In this document: positions 5,560-60,857 of the stretch, one piece after another
Layout: each line of letters begins with the position of its first letter
How positions within the stretch are numbered: position 1 is the stretch's first letter
From: Treponema sp.
GTDB taxonomy: Bacteria > Spirochaetota > Spirochaetia > Treponematales > Treponemataceae
DNA: 64,000 nucleotides
Assembly (NCBI GenBank): GCA_024682655.1
Contig: JAIKYZ010000108.1
Span: forward strand, 1-64,000
Reading direction: 5' to 3'
Notes under the pieces: model-generated
Told to the model about the DNA's origin: nothing
Seen by the model: the letters and a program-made list of their open reading frames with translations, nothing else
Database searches by the model: none
Translations under genes and position numbers: made by a program

Positions 5560-7041
5560 CTACTTACCTACACAGAAGTTTGCAAAGATTGAAGCCAAAA
5601 CATCATCCGGGGTAATATCGCCTGTTACTTCCGAAAGGGAATCTAAGGCATCTTCCAAATCTTGAACTACTGCATCTAAGGTGTAATTATCATCGGCACT
5701 TACAAGTGCATGTTTTGTTGCTTCCAGGGCCTGGGCTACTGCTTCTTTTTGTCTTGCAGATCCAAGTCCGGCCTGTTGTCTTTCGCTTGAAAGTCCTGCC
5801 TTTAGGATTTTACTGATTTCTGCAAAGAGTGCTTTTAATCCCTGTCCTGTTTTTGCAGAGATTTTTACCTGGGCTTGAGGATTTAGGGGTCTGTCCCCAT
5901 CAATATTTTCTTCCTCCGAAAAAGGGGCGTTGCGGGGAAAAGCAACTTGTTGATTGTCTCCGCTGGAAGGGGGAGCGGAAAAGCTCTGCTTTGAAGCGAG
6001 GGGAAGGCTTTCCCCACCTTTATCGCATTTATTCCAAACCAAAATTAATGGTTCACGGCAATTTTTAATAAAATCGTAATCTTCCTCTTTTAGACCAAGA
6101 CTTTGATCTACCAAATACAAAACGGCATCGGCATCCTGAGCAAGATTTCGGGTAAGTTGTACTCCCTGGGCTTCGATTTTATCCTGGGTGTCGCGTAAAC
6201 CGGCTGTGTCAAATAAACGAACTGGAATTCCATCTATACTGGCCCAAGATTCAAGCCAGTCTCGGGTAGTTCCTTCTATATCGCTTACAATTGCGCGTTC
6301 TTCTTTTAAAATTGCATTGAAAAGTGAAGATTTTCCGGCGTTTGTAGGACCTGCAAGTACAACTCTGGCTCCATCTTGATAAAGTTTTTCGCCCTGCCAG
6401 GAATCTACAAGGGACTGAAGTCTTTTAATTGCAAGTTCAATATCGGCTCGGTCAAAGGTGTCGGCAATTGTTTCTTCGTCTTCGGGATATTCTATTTCCA
6501 CTTCGATTGCGGCAAGGGTATCTAAGATTAATTTTTTGATTGAATCGATTTCCTGAAATAATGAACCGGCCAGTCTTCCAGCGGCATGGGAACGGGAAAC
6601 ATCGGTATGGCTGTCGATAATCTCTTTTACCGCCTCGGCTTTTGTTAAATCTGTTTTGCCATTTACGTAAGCGCGGAAAGTATATTCCCCACGGTTTGCC
6701 TGTCTAAAGCCGCTTTTAAGCATAAGGTTTTGAATTGCTGTAACTACGGCAGGGCCTCCGTGACAAAAAACTTCGACCATATCTTCGCCGGTAAAGGATT
6801 TTGGGGCACGGTAAACTGCACACATTACTTCGTCAATTTTTTCGCCAGAGTGATTTACAATCCAACCGTAAACAAGGGTATTTCCCGGGGCTTCTAATAA
6901 GGCTTTTGGTCTGGAAAAAACTTTACTTACTAAATCTATACAATTTTTTCCAGAAACTCTTACTATTCCAAGGGCGGCTGGAGCGAGTGCTGTGGCGATT
7001 GATGAAATTGCTTCTTCGGGTGTGTAGGAACCGATTGTCAT
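5560..7041 (-). CDS. mnmE: tRNA modification GTPase MnmE with repeat-derived insert
   Basis: 493 residues. With MnmG it installs the cmnm5/nm5 group on wobble U34. The folate-binding N domain (1-120) has RGEYTFRAYVNGKTDL. The G domain shows G1 GPTNAGKSS (231-239), G2 GTTRD (257-261), G3 DTAG (278-281), G4 NKCD (337-340) and G5 SAKTG (395-399), and the C-terminal CVGK keeps the catalytic Cys. Between G4 and G5 there is an extra stretch of about 50 residues (341-390) encoded entirely by the dispersed repeat: the 95-bp unit at 5924-6018 and the core at 5886-5898 (read GDRPL). The frame is intact, so the protein may still work. It starts directly after the upstream stop codon and shares its transcript. 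Confidence 0.95.
   Translation of the reverse strand: MTIGSYTPEEAISSIATALAPAALGIVRVSGKNCIDLVSKVFSRPKALLEAPGNTLVYGWIVNHSGEKIDEVMCAVYRAPKSFTGEDMVEVFCHGGPAVVTAIQNLMLKSGFRQANRGEYTFRAYVNGKTDLTKAEAVKEIIDSHTDVSRSHAAGRLAGSLFQEIDSIKKLILDTLAAIEVEIEYPEDEETIADTFDRADIELAIKRLQSLVDSWQGEKLYQDGARVVLAGPTNAGKSSLFNAILKEERAIVSDIEGTTRDWLESWASIDGIPVRLFDTAGLRDTQDKIEAQGVQLTRNLAQDADAVLYLVDQSLGLKEEDYDFIKNCREPLILVWNKCDKGGESLPLASKQSFSAPPSSGDNQQVAFPRNAPFSEEENIDGDRPLNPQAQVKISAKTGQGLKALFAEISKILKAGLSSERQQAGLGSARQKEAVAQALEATKHALVSADDNYTLDAVVQDLEDALDSLSEVTGDITPDDVLASIFANFCVGK
5886..5898 (-). repeat. Core repeat inside mnmE
   Basis: GGGGTCTGTCCCC on the plus strand, read in mnmE as Gly-Asp-Arg-Pro-Leu. It is the only core copy seen left of 40250. 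Confidence 0.9.
5924..6018 (+). repeat. Long repeat unit, copy 1 (inside mnmE)
   Basis: Begins GGGGCGTTGCGGGG and ends GGGGAAGGCTTTCCCCACC, with the shared block CCGCTGGAAGGGGGAGCGG in between. It can fold into several short stems (CCGCT/AGCGG, GGGGAA/TTCCCC). It is read through in mnmE without a stop, encoding residues about 342-373. Confidence 0.9.
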
Positions 7042-40252: not shown

Positions 40253-40463
40253 GGGGACAGACCCCGAGTTTTTCAAACCTGTGGGGACAGACCCCGAATT
40301 TTTTCAAAAACCGTGGGGACAGACCTCTATGTTTTTTCAAAAGCTGGGGGACAGACCCCTAACTTTTTCTAAAGCTGTGAGGACAGACCCCGAGTTTTTC
40401 TAAATCTGAGGGGACAGACCTCTATAATCTAAACCTTTTTCATTAAATGAGGGGTCTGTCCCC
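40253..40463. repeat. Tandem array of core repeats
   Basis: Six plus-oriented cores start at 40253, 40283, 40315, 40347, 40379 and 40410, spaced 30-32 bp. Each is followed by a T-rich stretch such as GAGTTTTTCAAACCTGT, so the whole unit of about 31 bp is tandemly repeated. Cores 3 and 6 read GGGGACAGACCTC; core 5 reads GAGGACAGACCCC. A seventh, inverted core lies at 40451-40463. Unlike CRISPR, the stretches between cores are themselves similar. Confidence 0.92.
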
Positions 40464-40490
40464 TCAGATTAGGTATTTTCCGCAAAATTG

Positions 40491-40570
40491 GGGGCGTTGC
40501 GGGGGTGCCACCCGCTAGAAGGGGTAGCAGAAAACCGAAGGTTTGAAGCGAGGGGAAGGCTTTCCCCTCC
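40491..40570 (+). repeat. Long repeat unit, copy 2
   Basis: GGGGCGTTGCGGGGG to GGGGAAGGCTTTCCCCTCC, with CCCGCTAGAAGGGGTAGC in the middle. It ends 4 bp before the stop codon of the minus-strand DAHP synthase gene, so it would form that mRNA's 3' hairpins. Confidence 0.9.
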
Positions 40571-41640: not shown

Positions 41641-41787
41641 GATTTTTTGTTTTATTGGATAAAATCTTCCTTAAAATCAAATACCGCAGGTTGTTTCAAC
41701 AACCGAGGATATTTGATTCGCAATATAAGAGTTTCGCAAGAAACTCTAAGTTAAATTGAATGGCGATATTTTAGCCATTCAATTTAA
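41641..41787. other. Cluster of hairpins between aroEKA and DAHP synthase
   Basis: Three perfect stems: GGTTGTT/AACAACC (41689-41704), AGAGTTTC/GAAACTCT with GCAA loop (41728-41747), and TTAAATTGAATGGC/GCCATTCAATTTAA (14 bp, 41751-41787). The last contains the aroEKA stop codon. None is followed by a T-tract on the minus strand, so processing or stability sites are likelier than termination. Confidence 0.6.
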
Positions 41788-44430
41788 ACCTTCTTTTTTT
41801 TCAATTTTAATTCCCAAACTTTTGATTACTTCAAAATATGATGGGAAACTTTTTTCTACGGCATGGGCATCGTCGATTTTTCCACCTGTTTTTGTTAGTA
41901 GAGTTGATAAAGCCATTACAATTCGATGATCGTTATATCCATGAATTATTTGATCTGGAGCGTGAATTTGATTTTTCTTAATTTCAATCTGATTTTCAGA
42001 ATAATTACTTTCAACCCCAAATTTTTTCAATTCGTCGCACATGATTTTTCCGCGATTACTTTCTTTAATTGCTAAACGCTTTGTACCTGTGAATATTCCT
42101 CCGTTATGGGTAGCAGCAAAAACAAAAAGAATTGGTCCTAAATCTGGACAATCTGAAATATCCAGAGTTGGACAAGTTTTTGTAAGTTGCTCAAACATTT
42201 CTTTATAAACCCGGTCTCCCTGTAAACTGTGATCATATAAGCCCTGGACTTTTACATCTCCACCTAAGCCATTAAAAACATCAAGAAAAGCAGCGTTAGA
42301 ATAATCACCTTCTACAGCAATATTTTTTGCTTTATATTTTTGATTTCCTTTGATTTCCAGAGTGGATTCATCTTTCCAATTAACCTCAACACCAAAATCA
42401 GCCATAGCCTGAATGGTTAGATCGATGTAAGGACGACTTTCTACAGGAGGTAATAATTTTATCTGACTGTCCCCCTGCAAAAGTGGAAGGATAAACAAAA
42501 GCCCCGTAATAAATTGACTGCTGATATTTCCTGCAACTTCATAAGTTCCGCTAGAAAAATTATTACCTTTTGTGTTGATTACTATTTTTTCTCCCTGACG
42601 TTCAAAAGAGATTCCATTTTTTGCACATAAATCTTCGTAAATTGACTGTGGCCTTGTCATCAAAACCGGAGCCCCGTAAAATTCGGAAATCTGACTGAAG
42701 TAAATTCCCATCGGGATGAAAAAACGGAGTGTTGAACCACTTTCGCGGCAGTTAAAGATTAGAGCTGAGGGGTCTGTCCCCATAGGATGCTGAGGGGTCT
42801 GTCCCCCAGGAATTTTAGGGGTCTGTCCCCCATGTTTAGCAGCAAAACCTGAAATCTTTACCCAATCAGGCCCCATCTGAACTTTTGCACCAAGATTTTT
42901 TACGCAATCCAATGTTGCAAGAATATCCTGGGAATATTCGATATTTGAAATTTCACTCTGTCCTTCAGAAAGGGCTGCGCAAATTATTGAACGGTGGGCC
43001 AAACTTTTAGACGGAGGAGCGCTCACCTGGCCTTTTGCTATTCCCGGTGAAATTGTAGCGATGTCGTCTTTGACATCATCCTCCAGGCCCGCAATTTGAA
43101 TGATTTGGTCTGCAATTTTTTCTGGGCCAATTCCACCCTTTACCTCAGCATCTGCACAAGCCTTATAAATTGGCAGCCTGTAATTATAAAGCCCACGGAT
43201 TTTTTCTGAACTATTTGCAGTTGGTCTGTCCTCTGTTGGCAATAATTCTTCCAATGGACGATTTATAAAGTAGATTTTTCCGTTTTTCTTGAGATTTTTT
43301 ACATTCTGTGGATTTAGAACCGCACCTCCTCCTGTTGAAATTACAGAGGAAGTTTTTTCAGAAAGTTGGGCAATAACTTGAGATTCCACTTTTCTAAAAT
43401 ATTCCTCGCCCTCTTTAGCAAAAATTTCGGAAATCTCTCGGCCTTCTACTTTTACTATTTCTGCATCCGAATCGATTAACTGACGATTTAGGAGTTTTGC
43501 AATTGCTTTTCCGACTGTTGTTTTGCCACAAGCAGGCATTCCAACCAGAACAATATTTTCTTTACGACCTAAGATTGTTTTGAAAATCTTATCAGCTTTT
43601 TGATTTTCGATTTTTTTATCAAAAAAGAACTCAGCCGCTTTGATTGCCTGGCCAACTAACATATAAAGTCCGCCTTCTGCCTTTAGACCACGTTTTTTGG
43701 CATCTAAAATCAAATTTGTGGAGTTTGGATTATAAATTGCATCAAGAACTCCTTCCAATTTTGGAAAATGCTCAAGATTAATCGGCTGATCATCACTTTT
43801 TGGAAACATTCCGCATGGAGTTGTGTTGATTATGATATTTGTTTCTTTTAGATTTTCTGCTTCCTGATAGGTGATAATTTTTATAGGGGTCTGTCCCCAA
43901 GATAATTCATTTTTACCTTCGGGGTCTGTCCCCTCAGCTTTTTCGGGGTCTGTCCCCTCGCCTTTTTCCATAGAAATCTTAGGGGTCTGTCCCCCAGGTC
44001 CCCCATGACGACTTACTTTTACAACCGAAGCACAACCCAAAGACTGAACCAGGGCACAGGCAGTTTTACTTGTTCCACCAGTTCCCAAAATCAATACATT
44101 TTTTCCTTTTACAGAAAGTTCCATTTTTTCCAGAAGAGATTTCATTCCGTAAAAATCTGTGTTGTAGCCGTACAATTTTCCATTTTTATTTACGATTGTA
44201 TTTACAGCCCCTATCAACTTTGCTGACTCATCAATTTCATCAAGATAGGGAATTACATCCTGCTTATAGGGAATTGTTACATTGATTGCCTTAAAATCAT
44301 GAAGCTTCATAAAAGCATCCAGTTTTTCTGGTGCAATTTCTTTTAGTTCATATTTATAATCCCCAATCAGATTGTGAATATCTTTTGAAAAGGAGTGACC
44401 TAAATGTTCACCAATTAAACCATATTCCAT
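41779..44430 (-). CDS. Fused shikimate dehydrogenase-kinase-EPSP synthase
   Basis: 883 residues with three enzymes of the shikimate pathway. Residues 1-285, shikimate dehydrogenase: GEHLGHSFSKDIHN, AINVTIPYKQ, NAD(P) loop ILGTGGTSKTA. Residues about 290-450, shikimate kinase: P-loop GMPACGKTT (297-305), STGGGAVL, RPLEEL. Residues about 465-883, EPSP synthase: APPSKSLAHRSI, CRESGSTLRFF, NDHRIVMAL. Two repeat-derived inserts are present: residues about 142-182 after the dehydrogenase Rossmann strand (four cores), and about 531-555 in EPSP synthase (three cores). All remain in frame. It follows aroC by 3 bp. Confidence 0.93.
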   Translation of the reverse strand: MEYGLIGEHLGHSFSKDIHNLIGDYKYELKEIAPEKLDAFMKLHDFKAINVTIPYKQDVIPYLDEIDESAKLIGAVNTIVNKNGKLYGYNTDFYGMKSLLEKMELSVKGKNVLILGTGGTSKTACALVQSLGCASVVKVSRHGGPGGQTPKISMEKGEGTDPEKAEGTDPEGKNELSWGQTPIKIITYQEAENLKETNIIINTTPCGMFPKSDDQPINLEHFPKLEGVLDAIYNPNSTNLILDAKKRGLKAEGGLYMLVGQAIKAAEFFFDKKIENQKADKIFKTILGRKENIVLVGMPACGKTTVGKAIAKLLNRQLIDSDAEIVKVEGREISEIFAKEGEEYFRKVESQVIAQLSEKTSSVISTGGGAVLNPQNVKNLKKNGKIYFINRPLEELLPTEDRPTANSSEKIRGLYNYRLPIYKACADAEVKGGIGPEKIADQIIQIAGLEDDVKDDIATISPGIAKGQVSAPPSKSLAHRSIICAALSEGQSEISNIEYSQDILATLDCVKNLGAKVQMGPDWVKISGFAAKHGGQTPKIPGGQTPQHPMGTDPSALIFNCRESGSTLRFFIPMGIYFSQISEFYGAPVLMTRPQSIYEDLCAKNGISFERQGEKIVINTKGNNFSSGTYEVAGNISSQFITGLLFILPLLQGDSQIKLLPPVESRPYIDLTIQAMADFGVEVNWKDESTLEIKGNQKYKAKNIAVEGDYSNAAFLDVFNGLGGDVKVQGLYDHSLQGDRVYKEMFEQLTKTCPTLDISDCPDLGPILFVFAATHNGGIFTGTKRLAIKESNRGKIMCDELKKFGVESNYSENQIEIKKNQIHAPDQIIHGYNDHRIVMALSTLLTKTGGKIDDAHAVEKSFPSYFEVIKSLGIKIEKKEGLN
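42769..42830 (-). repeat. Three core repeats inside the EPSP synthase part
   Basis: Cores at 42769, 42794 and 42818, spaced 24-25 bp, all in the gene's sense orientation. They are read as GTDPS, GQTPQ and GQTPK, so two frames are used within 62 bp. Confidence 0.93.
43886..43994 (-). repeat. Four core repeats inside the shikimate dehydrogenase part
   Basis: Cores at 43886, 43921, 43945 and 43982. They add about 40 residues, with GQTPI, GTDPE, GTDPE and GQTPK, to a loop after the NADP-binding strand. Confidence 0.93.
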
Positions 44431-48042: not shown

Positions 48043-48286
48043 GGGGACAGACCTCTATTTTTCTTTGGGGTCTGTCCCCAACTATAAATAAAATCCTTTT
48101 AGAATAATTTTTAAAGGGGACAGACCCCTCAATATCTGGGGACAGATCTCTAAATATTGTGAGTGAAATTACTTAATAACAGTGGAAATATTAAAAAATT
48201 GGGGACAGACCTCTGTTTTTCTTTGGGGTCTGTCCCCAACTATAAATAAAATCCTTTTAGAATAATTTTTAAAGGGGACAGACCCC
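48043..48286. repeat. Cluster of core repeats with a 92-bp duplication
   Basis: Cores: plus at 48043, 48116, 48138, 48201 and 48274; inverted at 48067 and 48225. About 48041-48132 and 48199-48290 are a direct repeat of about 92 bp with one difference seen. Each copy holds an inverted core pair (GGGGACAGACCTC with GGGGTCTGTCCCC) that can form a long hairpin. This and the next unit fill the 48030-48382 gap; no gene seen. Confidence 0.9.
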
Positions 48287-48298
48287 TCAATTTAGACA

Positions 48299-48382
48299 GG
48301 CGTTGCGGGCTGGCGATTGAAGCCCGCTGGAAGGGGTAGCGGAAAACCGGAGGTTTGAAGCGAGGGGAAGGCTTTCCCCACC
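48299..48382 (+). repeat. Long repeat unit, copy 3
   Basis: GGCGTTGCGGGCTGGCGATT to GGGGAAGGCTTTCCCCACC. It ends exactly one base before the stop codon of the minus-strand patatin gene. Confidence 0.92.
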
Positions 48383-50356: not shown

Positions 50357-50676
50357 GGGGACAGACCCCTAAAGATTTGATTAATTACATAGGGGGTTAG
50401 GGGTCTGTCCCCAGGGATTTCAATATATCCACTGATTTTTTTATTTTGGGGTCTGTCCCCACGCTTTGTATAGAAAAGCAATAAAAATTGAATTGCCTAA
50501 CAGTCCATTTTAGTATTTTTTCTGAAGTTTTCTTATTTAAAGGGGACAGACCCCTAATTTAGCTAGGCGTTACGGGCTGGCGATTGAAGCCCGCTAGAAG
50601 GGGTAGCGGAAAACCGAAGGTTTGTAGCGAGGGGAAGGCTTTCACCTCTTATGTAAAAATCAAGGGGACAGACCCC
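50357..50676. repeat. Core repeats upstream of cysK
   Basis: Plus cores at 50357, 50542 and 50664; inverted cores at 50400 and 50448. Together with the long unit they fill most of the 50270-50838 gap, where no gene is seen. Confidence 0.9.
50566..50646 (+). repeat. Long repeat unit, copy 4 (diverged)
   Basis: GGCGTTACGGGCTGGCGATT to GGGGAAGGCTTTCACC. It resembles copy 3 most, but the last stem is broken (TTTCACC for TTTCCCC) and it has GTTTGTAGCG for GTTTGAAGCG. Confidence 0.88.
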
Positions 50677-50838
50677 TACAAATTGACTTTCATTGACAAT
50701 TGAAACTATAAAAATATAATTGTTTGTATAAATGTGAAGTTTTTTATTTAACATCAAAATTTTTTCCATAATTTAGCTATAAAAATGTACTTTTTTATGA
50801 AACTTTATCAAAATTTATAGATATAGAGAGGTTCTTCT

Positions 50839-52605
50839 ATGAAAAAATACAGTTTTGTGTTTATTTTTTTACTTTTTGTCAGTTCTATGTTTTATTCTCA
50901 AAATAACCAAAAGATTTGGAGCGTAGATTCAGAGGTTTACACTTATATGACCTATCTATATGTAAATGAAGGCCGCGCTCTTCCAAGTTCTACTGGTCCA
51001 TGGTCGACCCAGGAATTAAAAAATATGCTCGGGGTATTCTGTGAAAAAAATAAAATTGATGGGGACAGACCCCTAGAAAGTGCGGAAGTCAAAAATGGTG
51101 GGGGCAGCCCCCTATTAAAAAACAAAAATAGTTACATTCTTTACGACAAAATCTATGAAATCCTTAATAAACCTTCCAGATTTTCGACAAAAGATAATTT
51201 CAATTTTTCATTGAACGGAAGCCTTAATCCAGAATTCTTTTTCCACACAAACTCTCAAGATTTTACACAAGAATCTGACTGGTACTATGATTTTGAAAAA
51301 AGAAATAGATTATTATTGCTCGAAGCTGAGGGATTTGCTGGTAATTATATTTACGGATATTCAAATCTTTCTTTAGGTTATACTTCAGGAACCGGAAATT
51401 CTGATTTAGAAACACAGATTTACGGTTCTAATTTCATGTCAAATATTCCTTACCTTCCCTTACAGGCAATTTCTTGTATAGATTTAAATTTTCCATTCCG
51501 TTCTTTCATGTCCGCCGGTAGTGAACATTGGAGTTTATCTGCTGGTAGAGATGTAATTCGATGGGGAAATGGTGAAAGCGGCAATCTTTTACTTGGTGGA
51601 AATGCCCTTTATGACAATAATCTGAGAATGTCTATATTTTACAATCAATTTAAATGGTCTTTTGTATCAATTTTCTATCCACATTCTCAAGATTTAACTA
51701 ATAGTGATCAAAATGATTCTGTGGAAGGAATAAAAATGTTCATGGCCCATCGTTTTGATTTCAGATTTTTCAAAGATAGAATCAATCTAAGCATTGCCGA
51801 AGCTATGTTGTATCAAAACTTAGATGGAATACTGGATTTAAGATTTTATAACCCTCTTGGTCTTTGGCATAACTACTATATTCGTGGAAATTCAAACTCA
51901 ATTCTTGATTTTACTATTGATTATACAATTATTGATGGCCTTAACCTTTATGGAGAATGGATTATAGATGAAATGGTAGGTCCTGGAGAACCAAAAGGAA
52001 AAAATGGGGAGGGATGGAGACCTGGAAAAAGCGGATATTTACTTGGGGTAAAATACATAAATCCTCTTAAAACAGGTGTTTTTAAAATCTCTATTGAAGG
52101 AGTTTATACTGATCCATGCCTTTATCTAAGAGAAGCATACGATTCTTCAACTGGAACACAAGGTCTCAGTTTTTACGGACATGTAAGGGAATTTGATAAT
52201 AATACAGGAATCAATTACATCAAAAATTGTATAGGTTATGTATACGGTGGTGATTGCATTGTAGGTAATTTAAAAGCAACATACCAATCCTGGAAAAAAT
52301 GGTCTTCCACAGCAGAAATTTTCTATATGGCTCATGGAATTATGGTCAATGAGTTAAATTATGACTGGAGTGTAAAAGAACCGGTCCTTGCTCCAAGTAC
52401 ACAAGATCCAACAATTAACCCTTCCAATGAAGACGGGGAAGTAGAATCTATCCTAAGACTTTCACTCTCTGGTGATTACCAAATCCTAAAAAATCTAAAT
52501 ATTTACGGTGGTTTGGACAATTATTTCATTTGGAATAAAGATAATGTAGAAACTTCGATGCTATATGACTTCCAATTGTACTCGGGAGTTGTTTTTACTT
52601 TTTAG
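50839..52605 (+). CDS. Exported barrel-like protein, repeat inserted
   Basis: 588 residues. Signal peptide 1-20 (SMFYSQ). The bulk is Tyr/Asn/Phe/Gly-rich beta strand (YGYSNLSLGYTSGTG, FYNPLGLWHNYYIRG, LYSGVVFTF at the end), as in a large outer membrane barrel; parts recall Wzi-like capsule proteins, but I cannot confirm. Residues about 75-91 (GDRPLESAEVKNGGGSPLL) come from a core at 51061-51073 and a variant at 51100-51112. RAYT follows 151 bp downstream. A weak AGAGAGG lies before the ATG. Confidence 0.7.
   Translation: MKKYSFVFIFLLFVSSMFYSQNNQKIWSVDSEVYTYMTYLYVNEGRALPSSTGPWSTQELKNMLGVFCEKNKIDGDRPLESAEVKNGGGSPLLKNKNSYILYDKIYEILNKPSRFSTKDNFNFSLNGSLNPEFFFHTNSQDFTQESDWYYDFEKRNRLLLLEAEGFAGNYIYGYSNLSLGYTSGTGNSDLETQIYGSNFMSNIPYLPLQAISCIDLNFPFRSFMSAGSEHWSLSAGRDVIRWGNGESGNLLLGGNALYDNNLRMSIFYNQFKWSFVSIFYPHSQDLTNSDQNDSVEGIKMFMAHRFDFRFFKDRINLSIAEAMLYQNLDGILDLRFYNPLGLWHNYYIRGNSNSILDFTIDYTIIDGLNLYGEWIIDEMVGPGEPKGKNGEGWRPGKSGYLLGVKYINPLKTGVFKISIEGVYTDPCLYLREAYDSSTGTQGLSFYGHVREFDNNTGINYIKNCIGYVYGGDCIVGNLKATYQSWKKWSSTAEIFYMAHGIMVNELNYDWSVKEPVLAPSTQDPTINPSNEDGEVESILRLSLSGDYQILKNLNIYGGLDNYFIWNKDNVETSMLYDFQLYSGVVFTF
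51061..51112 (+). repeat. Core repeat plus a variant inside the barrel-like gene
   Basis: GGGGACAGACCCC at 51061-51073 (read GDRPL) and GGGGGCAGCCCCC at 51100-51112 (read GGGSPL), a compensated stem change. Confidence 0.85.
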
Positions 52606-52613
52606 ATAATTTT

Positions 52614-52713
52614 GATGGGGACAGACCCCTCTAATTAAAACCACAGAGCACTCTAAGGGAACTGTCCCCATCAAATGATTATAATAATTTAAAAAAATAA
52701 GGGGACAGACCCC
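52614..52713. repeat. Core repeats and inverted pair before RAYT
   Basis: GATGGGGACAG (52614-52624) and CTGTCCCCATC (52662-52672) are perfect 11-bp inverted repeats; the first is part of a core at 52617-52629. Another core at 52701-52713 lies 43 bp before the RAYT start. Confidence 0.88.
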
Positions 52714-52756: not shown

Positions 52757-53503
52757 ATGAGAGAAAAACGAAAACGAGGCGAAAGTGGTATTTACCATAT
52801 AATTTTAAGGGGAAATAATCAGCAAAACCTTTTTTATGATGATGAAGACAGATATTTTTTCCTGAATAGAATCAAAAAATATAGTCAAAATTTGGGAATA
52901 GATATTTATGCCTATTGTTTAATGGGAAATCATGTTCACATTCTAATCGGGAAAGGAAATGATTTTATGTCTCTTTTTGTAAAAAAACTGGCATGTTCAT
53001 ATGTTTACTATTTTAATCACAAATACGAAAGAACGGGCCACTTATTTCAAGGCAGATATAAAAGCGAGCCTGTTGATTCTGAGGAATATTTTAAGGTTGT
53101 TTACAGATATATTATTCAAAATCCCGAAAAAGCCGGAATATGTGCGTGGTTTAAATATCAGTGGAGCTCTAAACAATCTATAAACCATGATATAAATTAT
53201 GTAAAAATCTCGTTTGTATTTGATATTTTCAATGGTAAAAATAATTTAATAAAGTTTTTATATGAAGAAAATGATGATTTATGTATGGAATACAATTCCG
53301 TAGGATTAGACAAATTAAAAAATGATGAATTAAAAACAATATTCATAAAACGGATTTTCGAAGTATCAAACATTTTTGAAATTAATCATTTACCGCTTGA
53401 AAAAATTCAAGATCGTTTAAAGTTATTAAAAAATAGTGGTATAAAAGAAAATCAAATAGCTCGTTTAACAGGTATTTCAAGAAAAATTATAAAAAACGCT
53501 TAA
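52757..53503 (+). CDS. REP-associated tyrosine transposase (RAYT, Y1_Tnp)
   Basis: 248 residues. Single-strand-DNA transposase fold of the IS200/Y1 type: the start GIYHIILRGNNQQNLFYDDED, the HUH motif in CLMGNHVHILI (His59, His61), RTGHLFQGRYKS, and the Tyr nucleophile in RYIIQNPEKAG (Tyr118). The first basic stretch REKRKRG and the GxYHII(L)RG block are RAYT-like rather than IS200-like. A C-terminal part ends in a likely helix-turn-helix (ENQIARLTGISRKIIK). It has no second transposon gene and no IS ends, only core repeats on both sides, as expected for a host-fixed RAYT acting on REP sequences. No clear Shine-Dalgarno. Confidence 0.88.
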   Translation: MREKRKRGESGIYHIILRGNNQQNLFYDDEDRYFFLNRIKKYSQNLGIDIYAYCLMGNHVHILIGKGNDFMSLFVKKLACSYVYYFNHKYERTGHLFQGRYKSEPVDSEEYFKVVYRYIIQNPEKAGICAWFKYQWSSKQSINHDINYVKISFVFDIFNGKNNLIKFLYEENDDLCMEYNSVGLDKLKNDELKTIFIKRIFEVSNIFEINHLPLEKIQDRLKLLKNSGIKENQIARLTGISRKIIKNA

Positions 53504-53815
53504 CTACCAATAAAATTTTCACTTAACCTTCAAATTCAATCACTTTATTCTATTTATAAGCCACAAAATTTTATTCCAGCACGTAAAAGTTTTAACTTAT
53601 TTTGAAACTCCACAAAAAATCTAACTAGGGAAACAAAAAAATAAAGGGGACTGTCCCCACAAATCCGTCCCCACAAATCCCCCAAACCAAAAATCCCCCA
53701 TCACATCAAAACTTGTGGGGACAGACCCCTCGCCCCCTCCCTTGACCCATCCCAATAAATCAATTACCCTAAAACCATAAAATCTTCTATAACGAATTTA
53801 GAAAAGGATCCTACT
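53504..53815. other. Gap downstream of RAYT with repeats
   Basis: No gene seen. It contains GGGGACTGTCCCC (53646-53658), a more perfectly palindromic variant, partial cores with CCGTCCCCACAAATCC, and a core at 53717-53729. Confidence 0.7.
53646..53729 (+). repeat. Core repeats after RAYT
   Basis: A variant GGGGACTGTCCCC at 53646-53658 and a core at 53717-53729, giving RAYT a copy on each side. Confidence 0.85.
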
Positions 53816-59842: not shown

Positions 59843-60068
59843 GGGGACAGACCCCTCCTTTTTTTATTGTGTGGGGACAGACCCCATAAAATTCACATTA
59901 AATCCCAGGGGACAGACCCCTAAATTTTTTAGTCAAACTGGGGCGTTGCGGGGGCAAAAGTAGAGTAAATTCTCCCGCTAGAAGGGGTAGCGGAAAACCG
60001 GAGGTTTGAAGCGAGGGGAAGGCTTTCCCCACCTAAGAAATTTTTGAAATTATTTGGGGACAGACCCC
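59843..60068 (+). repeat. Core repeats downstream of birA
   Basis: Cores at 59843, 59873, 59908 and 60056, the first three spaced 30 and 35 bp like the array at 40253. Confidence 0.92.
59940..60033 (+). repeat. Long repeat unit, copy 5
   Basis: GGGGCGTTGCGGGGGC to GGGGAAGGCTTTCCCCACC. Its central part is longer (AAAAGTAGAGTAAATTCT between the two GCGGG/CCCGC arms) than in copies 2-4. Ends 51 bp before the ecfT stop. Confidence 0.92.
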
Positions 60069-60083
60069 TCACTTTGAAATAAA

Positions 60084-60857
60084 TTACTTTCTAATTGAAA
60101 TTGCTCTTGCCATGTTGTAGGCCTTTTTCATTCCGACAGAAAATAAAAGAGGGATGAGCACTTTATACATTTTGATGGAAATTTTTCCGCCGCGGGCAAG
60201 CCAGGCTTTTTTTGATTGATTCCAGATTTTTGATACCATGGGGATAAAATTTAAGAACATTGATAGTGAATCTGTTAGGAGATTTTCTTTTTTTAGGTGA
60301 AATATTTTGCGCAAAAAGGATTCAATTTTTCCGATTCCTTGCCGAAGTTCCAGAGCTGTTGAAGTCTTAAAAATTAAAGACGCACTTTGCATAATTGAAA
60401 AGAGTTTTAACAAAAGAAACACTGTGTCCTTTTCTGATTCCCAGGTGAAAATAGGGGGCTGTCCCCCCTGCCCTCCCGAATTTCCAAAATCTGTAGAGGT
60501 CTGTCCCCAACATTGTCCCAACCAATTTTTGAAATATTCCCAAAGTGATTTTAAAGGGGACAGACCCCACTCAAAATTGGAAAAAAATACTACAAAATAC
60601 GAAATTATCTTAAAAGCTAAAAGCAAAAAGGCATAATAAATAATGGGTTTTACATCGCAAAATTGTTCTCTAAAAGAAAAACGCAAAGAGGTGGCGATAA
60701 TAAACTGCAGAACAATCAAAATTATCGCGAAATATGGAGGAAGCGAGAGAAATAAAATATTGATAAGGGGAATAAAAATTATTTTCCAGGTAGCGGGGAT
60801 TTTGTGCAGGAAAGAGGAACCTTGTTTATATGAAAATAAAGAAACATCCTGTGACAT
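60084..60857 (-). CDS. ECF transporter T component, repeat inserted (biotin)
   Basis: 257 residues. Hydrophobic segments about 28-48, 65-88 and 218-245, plus the coupling helix with the A-R-G motif in KAWLARGGKISIK, mark the EcfT/CbiQ family. It joins the ATPase to the S component BioY. Residues about 96-134 (from LSPLKSLWEYFKN to QGGQPPI) are not family sequence: the cores at 60556 and 60496 and a variant at 60454 encode them. Hydrophobic pattern resumes directly after. It follows the ATPase gene by 51 bp, and a core (60876) lies in that spacer. BioN is the likely role by context. Confidence 0.85.
   Translation of the reverse strand: MSQDVSLFSYKQGSSFLHKIPATWKIIFIPLINILFLSLPPYFAIILIVLQFIIATSLRFSFREQFCDVKPIIYYAFLLLAFKIISYFVVFFSNFEWGLSPLKSLWEYFKNWLGQCWGQTSTDFGNSGGQGGQPPIFTWESEKDTVFLLLKLFSIMQSASLIFKTSTALELRQGIGKIESFLRKIFHLKKENLLTDSLSMFLNFIPMVSKIWNQSKKAWLARGGKISIKMYKVLIPLLFSVGMKKAYNMARAISIRK
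60454..60568. repeat. Core repeats inside ecfT
   Basis: A variant GGGGGCTGTCCCC at about 60454-60466, an inverted core GAGGTCTGTCCCC at 60496-60508, and a plus core at 60556-60568. Both orientations are read through in one gene without a stop. Confidence 0.88.

Follow-up and report, generated by a model that had tools for sequence, protein, structure and literature searches.

Repeats resembling the ends of a tyrosine transposase unit inserted in frame into enzyme genes of a Treponema-like genome

A 13-bp repeat, GGGGACAGACCCC (referred to below as the core), is dispersed in numerous copies in a Treponema-like genome, and many of these copies are located in frame within genes encoding functional enzymes. 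Judging from its sequence and surroundings, the core is best filed as the end-repeat (TIR) family of a putative REP-type tyrosine transposase (TIRYT), with an unusual intragenic life. The explanation that we favour, with a probability of roughly 0.7, is that the core is the TIR of a transposon-like unit, which is mobilised by the TIRYT and filtered by the tolerance of protein loops. The source genome, G000, is a 2.74-Mb MAG composed of 151 contigs, and the window analysed comprises 64,000 nucleotides of one of them (C145:1-64000). The genus comparison covered 36 genomes, all of which are MAGs.

Abundance and genic location of the core

The core occurs in 115 copies in the 2.74 Mb of G000, whereas the reversed pattern, used as a control, occurs in none, which excludes a chance origin of the 13-mers. 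When the variant GGGGACAGACCTC was added, the number of copies rose to 132. A copy was considered genic if it lay inside an ORF of at least 150 aa, with ORFs called simply, as stop-free frames; the stretches taken for this count include 114 of the 115 exact copies. By this definition, 41 of the 132 cores are placed, at 23 sites, within 19 ORFs. The coding fraction of the stretches examined is approximately 0.88, compared with about 31% of cores in ORFs, and the core therefore avoids genes overall. After the merging of arrays, 19 genic sites are in the sense and 4 in the antisense orientation (p = 0.0026). All three sense frames of the core, which the earlier note on this DNA had described as open, are used within genes, and they encode the peptides GDRP, GQTP and GTDP. 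The hosts include MnmE, AroEKA, CarA, an ABC ATPase, a FecCD permease, a DUF763 protein, HrpB, a metallo-beta-lactamase fold protein and an SLT transglycosylase. The missing TAA as the next codon after GTDP copies was discarded as evidence, since the ORFs were defined by the absence of stop codons.

Intergenic cores of the window form (i) an array at 40253-40463, mostly on the + strand, (ii) a group in both orientations at 48043-48287, and two groups that each flank an R1 element (see below), at (iii) 50357-50677 and (iv) 59843-60069 (+ strand). The second of these groups lies within a tandem duplication of approximately 158 bp, in which the same three cores, of mixed orientation, appear twice. 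A CRISPR array was ruled out, as the repeats are 13 bp long, are separated mostly by uneven linkers of 1-28 bp and are found within enzyme genes.

The transposase gene and its end repeats

A search of the G000 genome with Y1_Tnp (PF01797) retrieved a single gene (E 4e-14), located in the window at positions 52757-53503 of the + strand. The predicted product (248 aa), which carries the HUH motif NHVHI, is a candidate REP/TIR-type tyrosine transposase. Its match to the NCBIfam model REP_Tyr_transpos (NF047646; E 6e-14) is below the cut-off of that model, as is the weak similarity of its C-terminus to HTH_7 (E 0.005). A search of solved structures gave no real match, and a search of PHROGs gave no match.

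An exact core, which constitutes the upstream terminal repeat, is situated 43 bp before the transposase gene (52701-52713, + strand), and an inverted core variant, GGGGACTGTCCCC, is situated 142 bp after it (53646-53658, - strand). The same layout (core, transposase, inverted core) was found in G082, G024, G010a, G030, G006 and G033a. The downstream repeat of G033b is far from the transposase gene, and the layout of G010b is less clear. In nearly all of the genus homologues examined, the gene is preceded by GGG(G)ACAG and followed by CTGTCCC. Units of this kind, with end repeats fitting the motif GGGGWSAS, have been named TIRtrons and their enzymes TIRYTs (Di Nocera et al. 2013, PMC3733652), and most TIRYTs have been placed in subclass 2.1 of TnpA-Y1 (PMC6006769). 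The end repeats of the genus homologues agree with this published motif, which supports the TIRYT reading.

At least 10 cores are present in 4 of the 6 genus genomes with the transposase gene, compared with 1 of the 30 without it (p = 0.0012). G006 and G033 have the transposase and 0-1 exact cores, and the flanks of their genes carry core variants of their own (GGGACAGACCTT in G006 and GGGACAGCCTT in G033). In G007, 14 cores were counted and the transposase was not detected; the gene may have been lost, or the MAG may be incomplete.

When cores no more than 500 bp apart were merged into clusters, 17 of the 46 clusters of G000 were located within 25 kb of the transposase gene (0.84 expected; P 3e-18), and the same was true of 16 of the 46 clusters of G024 (0.85 expected; P 1e-16). 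The two genomes are not fully independent cases, because part of the transposase neighbourhood is common to both; an EcfT-like gene is found near the transposase in each of them. The clustering suggests that the core transposes over short distances, although it may also reflect a permissive region of shared ancestry.

The high-GC genome G038, from another family of the order, contains 62 exact cores in direct arrays (loci L238-L246). Its Y1 transposases are flanked by GGGGACAGAGCTC-type repeats, and GGGGACAG repeats are abundant near the Y1 genes. The cores of G038 and the repeats flanking its transposases point to an old age of the GGGGACAG motif within the order. As nearly all frames are open at this high GC content, the genome is not informative on in-frame insertion.

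Insertions in AroEKA and other proteins

The AroEKA, MnmE, CarA, FecCD, DUF763, EcfT-like and ApbE-like genes were compared with orthologues, and for these genes the insertion in frame into functional enzymes is established. The aroEKA fusion (41779-44430, - strand), an ORF of 883 aa encoding shikimate dehydrogenase, shikimate kinase and EPSP synthase (Pfam matches Shikimate_dh_N, SKI and EPSP_synthase), contains seven exact cores in frame, arranged in two arrays. The four-core array (43886-43994, - strand; residues ~146-182), read as GQTP, GTDP, GTDP and GQTP, occupies the AroE loop that follows the VSR motif. The three-core array (42769-42830, - strand; residues ~534-554) occupies the loop of AroA (EPSP synthase) that precedes CRESGSTLRFF. 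In an AlphaFold model of the protein (13 sequences; mean pLDDT 82.5), the pLDDT falls below 50 over more than 10 residues in just two internal stretches, 143-180 and 531-553, i.e. the two core arrays, which are thus predicted to be disordered. In alignments with relatives, the inserts are present in G000 and in the sister genome G082, are represented by one core per loop in G024, and are absent in G006, G033, G065, G079 and more distant loci. In G033, G065 and G079, separate aroEK and aroA genes take the place of the fusion. In the aroEKA region of G010 (C79; L050, L112), a TGA and a TAA are found within one tblastn span.

The mnmE gene (5560-7041, - strand) hosts one core and one R1 element, next to each other in the stretch that separates the GTPase motifs NKxD and SAK. 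The exact core (5886-5898, - strand) is read in the frame GDRPL. The insert of MnmE had been attributed to the core in the earlier note; this applies to just these ~5 residues, and residues 341-373 are encoded by R1 (5923-6018, + strand), which is antisense to the gene and specifies GGESLPLASKQ...PRNAPF. The EcfT-like gene (60084-60857), for which a Pfam search gave no match, contains sense variants of the core at 60454 and 60496 and an exact antisense core at 60556 (60454-60568, - strand). The barrel gene at 50839-52605 matches the Pfam family Caps_assemb_Wzi (E 7e-8) and contains, on the + strand, an exact core (51061-51073) and a variant with two mismatches (51100-51112); no orthologue of it was found among the related loci examined. 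Cores are thus present in all the genes that had been named previously, i.e. mnmE, aroEKA (seven copies), ecfT and the barrel-like gene. For the remaining ORFs, including the Wzi-like gene, the integrity of the reading frame suggests that insertion was likewise in frame.

Outgroup orthologues of MnmE and of the EcfT-like protein have no inserts in our alignments, and the insert of the ApbE-like gene is likewise missing from an outgroup. The absence of inserts from outgroup orthologues, which had been predicted for AroE 142-182, AroA 531-555, MnmE and EcfT, agrees with these alignments. At the places of insertion the outgroups have short linkers of variable length, and the insert sites are therefore loops that already tolerated changes in length. 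When the inserts were excluded, the dN/dS values between G000 and G082 were 0.10 for AroEKA, 0.06 for MnmE, 0.10 for CarA, 0.11 for FecCD, 0.06 for DUF763 and 0.09 for the EcfT-like gene, and these six proteins are full length in both genomes. The host genes compared are under purifying selection and show no sign of inactivity, and the proposal that the repeats entered loops of intact genes in frame is borne out.

In nucleotide alignments, G000 and G082 have their insert sites in common, which places the inserts before the split of these genomes, and differ in the number of copies and in the linkers. HrpB contains three cores in G000 and one in G082, and a methyltransferase gene contains a single core in G000 and an expanded stretch in G082. 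A search for empty sites among G000, G082 and G024 yielded no clean single-copy case, only differences in array length.

A second element family, R1

R1 is an element of ~76-142 bp with three stems, unrelated to the core, whose conserved blocks are GGGGCGTT(G/A)CGGGG...TAGAAGGGGTAGCG...AGCGAGGGGAAGGCTTTCCCC. A covariance model detected five copies in the window and 41 in the G000 genome; of the 36 genus genomes covered, 32 contained at least one copy (maximum 53 per genome). Apart from the copy in mnmE, those of the window are intergenic and located on the + strand (40490-40570, 48296-48382, 50563-50649 and 59939-60033). The stems of R1 covary strongly: in an alignment of 82 copies, which was fitted to the model and somewhat favours it, 94.8% of the cells are paired, and cells with double changes number 232, compared with 65.5 in shuffled controls and no more than 38 in slid ones. 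An RNA known to Rfam was rejected, as R1 has no match in that database, and the element was not found in the literature searched.

Genic copies were studied in a sample of 51 copies from four genomes, chosen from the best-scoring matches. Eighteen of them lie in ORFs, 17 of these in one frame (frame 0), which encodes GGVxGVSP...EGVA...SEGETSP in the sense and GGESLPLA...ATPSSG...SPRNAP in the antisense orientation. Several frames are open in the intergenic copies, and stop codons alone therefore do not account for this bias. In G014, R1 is inserted in the CarA linker and in the DUF763 loop, i.e. the same loops that hold cores in G000.

In three species (L078, L198, L232), R1 was also observed in frame in the gene for CarB, the large subunit of carbamoyl-phosphate synthase, at the same junction in G000 and G023 and at another junction in G014. 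For seven of 18 G000 copies, a core lies no more than 26 bp away, in some cases on both sides (window positions 40490, 48296, 50563, 59939 and 5923; L095 1630; L096 13363), as if cores inserted beside R1 or both elements had permissive places in common.

Proposed mechanism and alternative explanations

The unit that we propose would consist of a core, the TIRYT gene and an inverted core, with the 13-bp core as its end repeat. The position of the core beside the gene, their co-occurrence and the clustering suggest that the transposase acts on it. The TIRYT would transpose the short end repeats alone, by a cut-and-paste or a copying reaction via single-stranded DNA and mostly to nearby sites, as RAYTs are thought to act on REPs. 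Copies in essential genes would persist only if the frame was kept and the insertion was tolerated at its site, in a surface loop or a linker; the core, open in three sense frames and encoding short hydrophilic peptides, may pass this filter unusually often. Local duplication or re-insertion of the seeded copies would subsequently produce arrays, the linkers of which are not identical. The unrelated, three-stemmed R1 would also pass this filter, at the same loops and with a strongly preferred frame. We consider it unlikely, but not far-fetched, that R1 and the core are unrelated "coding-ready" mobile elements for which the chemistry of insertion, too, favours codon-compatible entry, with transposition regularly furnishing conserved enzymes with in-frame peptides genus-wide.

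It might be argued that the genic arrays are ordinary minisatellites, each begun by a chance or ancestral G-rich motif in a loop and extended by replication slippage, with no part played by a transposase. Many arrays do run in the same direction with a spacing of ~14-50 bp, one intergenic array (C76) has nearly identical linkers, and G000 and its sister G082 have sites in common, with copy number as the main difference. However, local slippage cannot make 115 exact 13-mers at approximately 46 separate places, the transposase gene of several genomes is bracketed by this same sequence, and the linkers of genic arrays are often unrelated, so that we regard this origin as improbable. Even less can be said for the core being primarily a regulatory or structural DNA or RNA signal (a terminator, nucleoid or replication site) that is tolerated in genes. 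Such a role would suit a short GC-rich palindrome that is mostly intergenic in an AT-rich genome and lies 6-26 bp from some R1 elements, but not one that is sporadic across the genus and the phylum, tied to the presence of the transposase and clustered around it.

The all-frame use of the core, the intergenic position of most copies, the differences in copy number and linkers between sister genomes and the unrelated functions of the hosts make it very improbable that the repeats are kept for protein function, with the GQTP/GTDP loops or the R1 peptides acting as a regulatory, binding or modification site. This holds despite their recurrence in enzymes of related pathways (AroEKA and CarA; R1 in CarB), the strong sense bias of the core and the frame bias of R1 beyond the effect of stop codons. 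The fragmented state of the MAG and the simple ORF calling might raise the suspicion of an artefact of binning, assembly or gene calling (chimeric contigs or pseudogenes). This is hardly credible, as separate assemblies (G082, G024) contain the same inserts at corresponding loops and the ORFs are full length, with dN/dS values of 0.06-0.11. For the six genes tested, the independent assemblies and the purifying selection refute it.

Comparison with known systems

The arrangement resembles the TIRtrons/TIRYTs in having an HUH Y1 transposase gene between inverted repeats that conform to GGGGWSAS (GGGGACAG in the present case), end repeats that are also dispersed singly and in groups, and possibly a C-terminal HTH. 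It differs in that about one third of the copies in the stretches examined are genic, form tandem arrays and use three frames, in that the cores gather around the gene, at distances of no more than tens of kb, and in its spirochaete host. The intragenic repeats described in PMC3733652 (including those of O. terrae and Thauera) belong to the GTAG and CGTC families and are not TIRs.

The earlier note had likened the repeats to the palindromic elements of Rickettsia (RPEs). As a functional analogy this is good, since small palindromic elements are found in frame in many unrelated protein genes, also as arrays; however, the core is not an RPE and matches the GGGGWSAS class of TIRs. The analogy fits R1, which the note had not told apart from the core, better, because R1 is a structured element of ~76-142 bp, carried on both strands of genes mostly in one preferred frame. 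R1 is a new family that, judged by its features, appears to work as the Rickettsia elements do. The analogy is also less unique than was implied, as intragenic REPs have already been described outside Rickettsia. With respect to RPE and CGTC elements, compared here by features, the Treponema repeats differ in phylum, in the transposase linked to the core and in the three stems of R1. CGTC elements (including RPE-4 and RPE-6) have been reported without a dedicated transposase (PMC3733652), which is partly why the in-frame entry of RPEs is puzzling. A core family found in frame beside a candidate transposase, with relatives that have and lack it, renders such entry testable, and brings a rare kind of protein change, familiar chiefly from Rickettsia, within reach of tests in another phylum. 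Moreover, the presence of two unrelated families in the same loops (MnmE, CarA, DUF763) provides a natural map of insertion-tolerant sites in conserved enzymes.

The core shares with the REPIN/GTAG REP and RAYT system (PMC3116915) the association of short hairpin-like repeats with a Y1 tyrosine transposase gene. Unlike those repeats, it has no GTAG/GTGG tag at the hairpin foot in its flanks and forms arrays of the same direction rather than inverted doublets, and it is not randomly extragenic, whereas the REP doublets of P. fluorescens are reported to be randomly spread in extragenic space (PMC3116915). No Treponema report of spirochaete or in-frame coding palindromes was found in the literature searched. 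Intragenic REP- and RPE-like elements are already known as such, and the Treponema variant is new.
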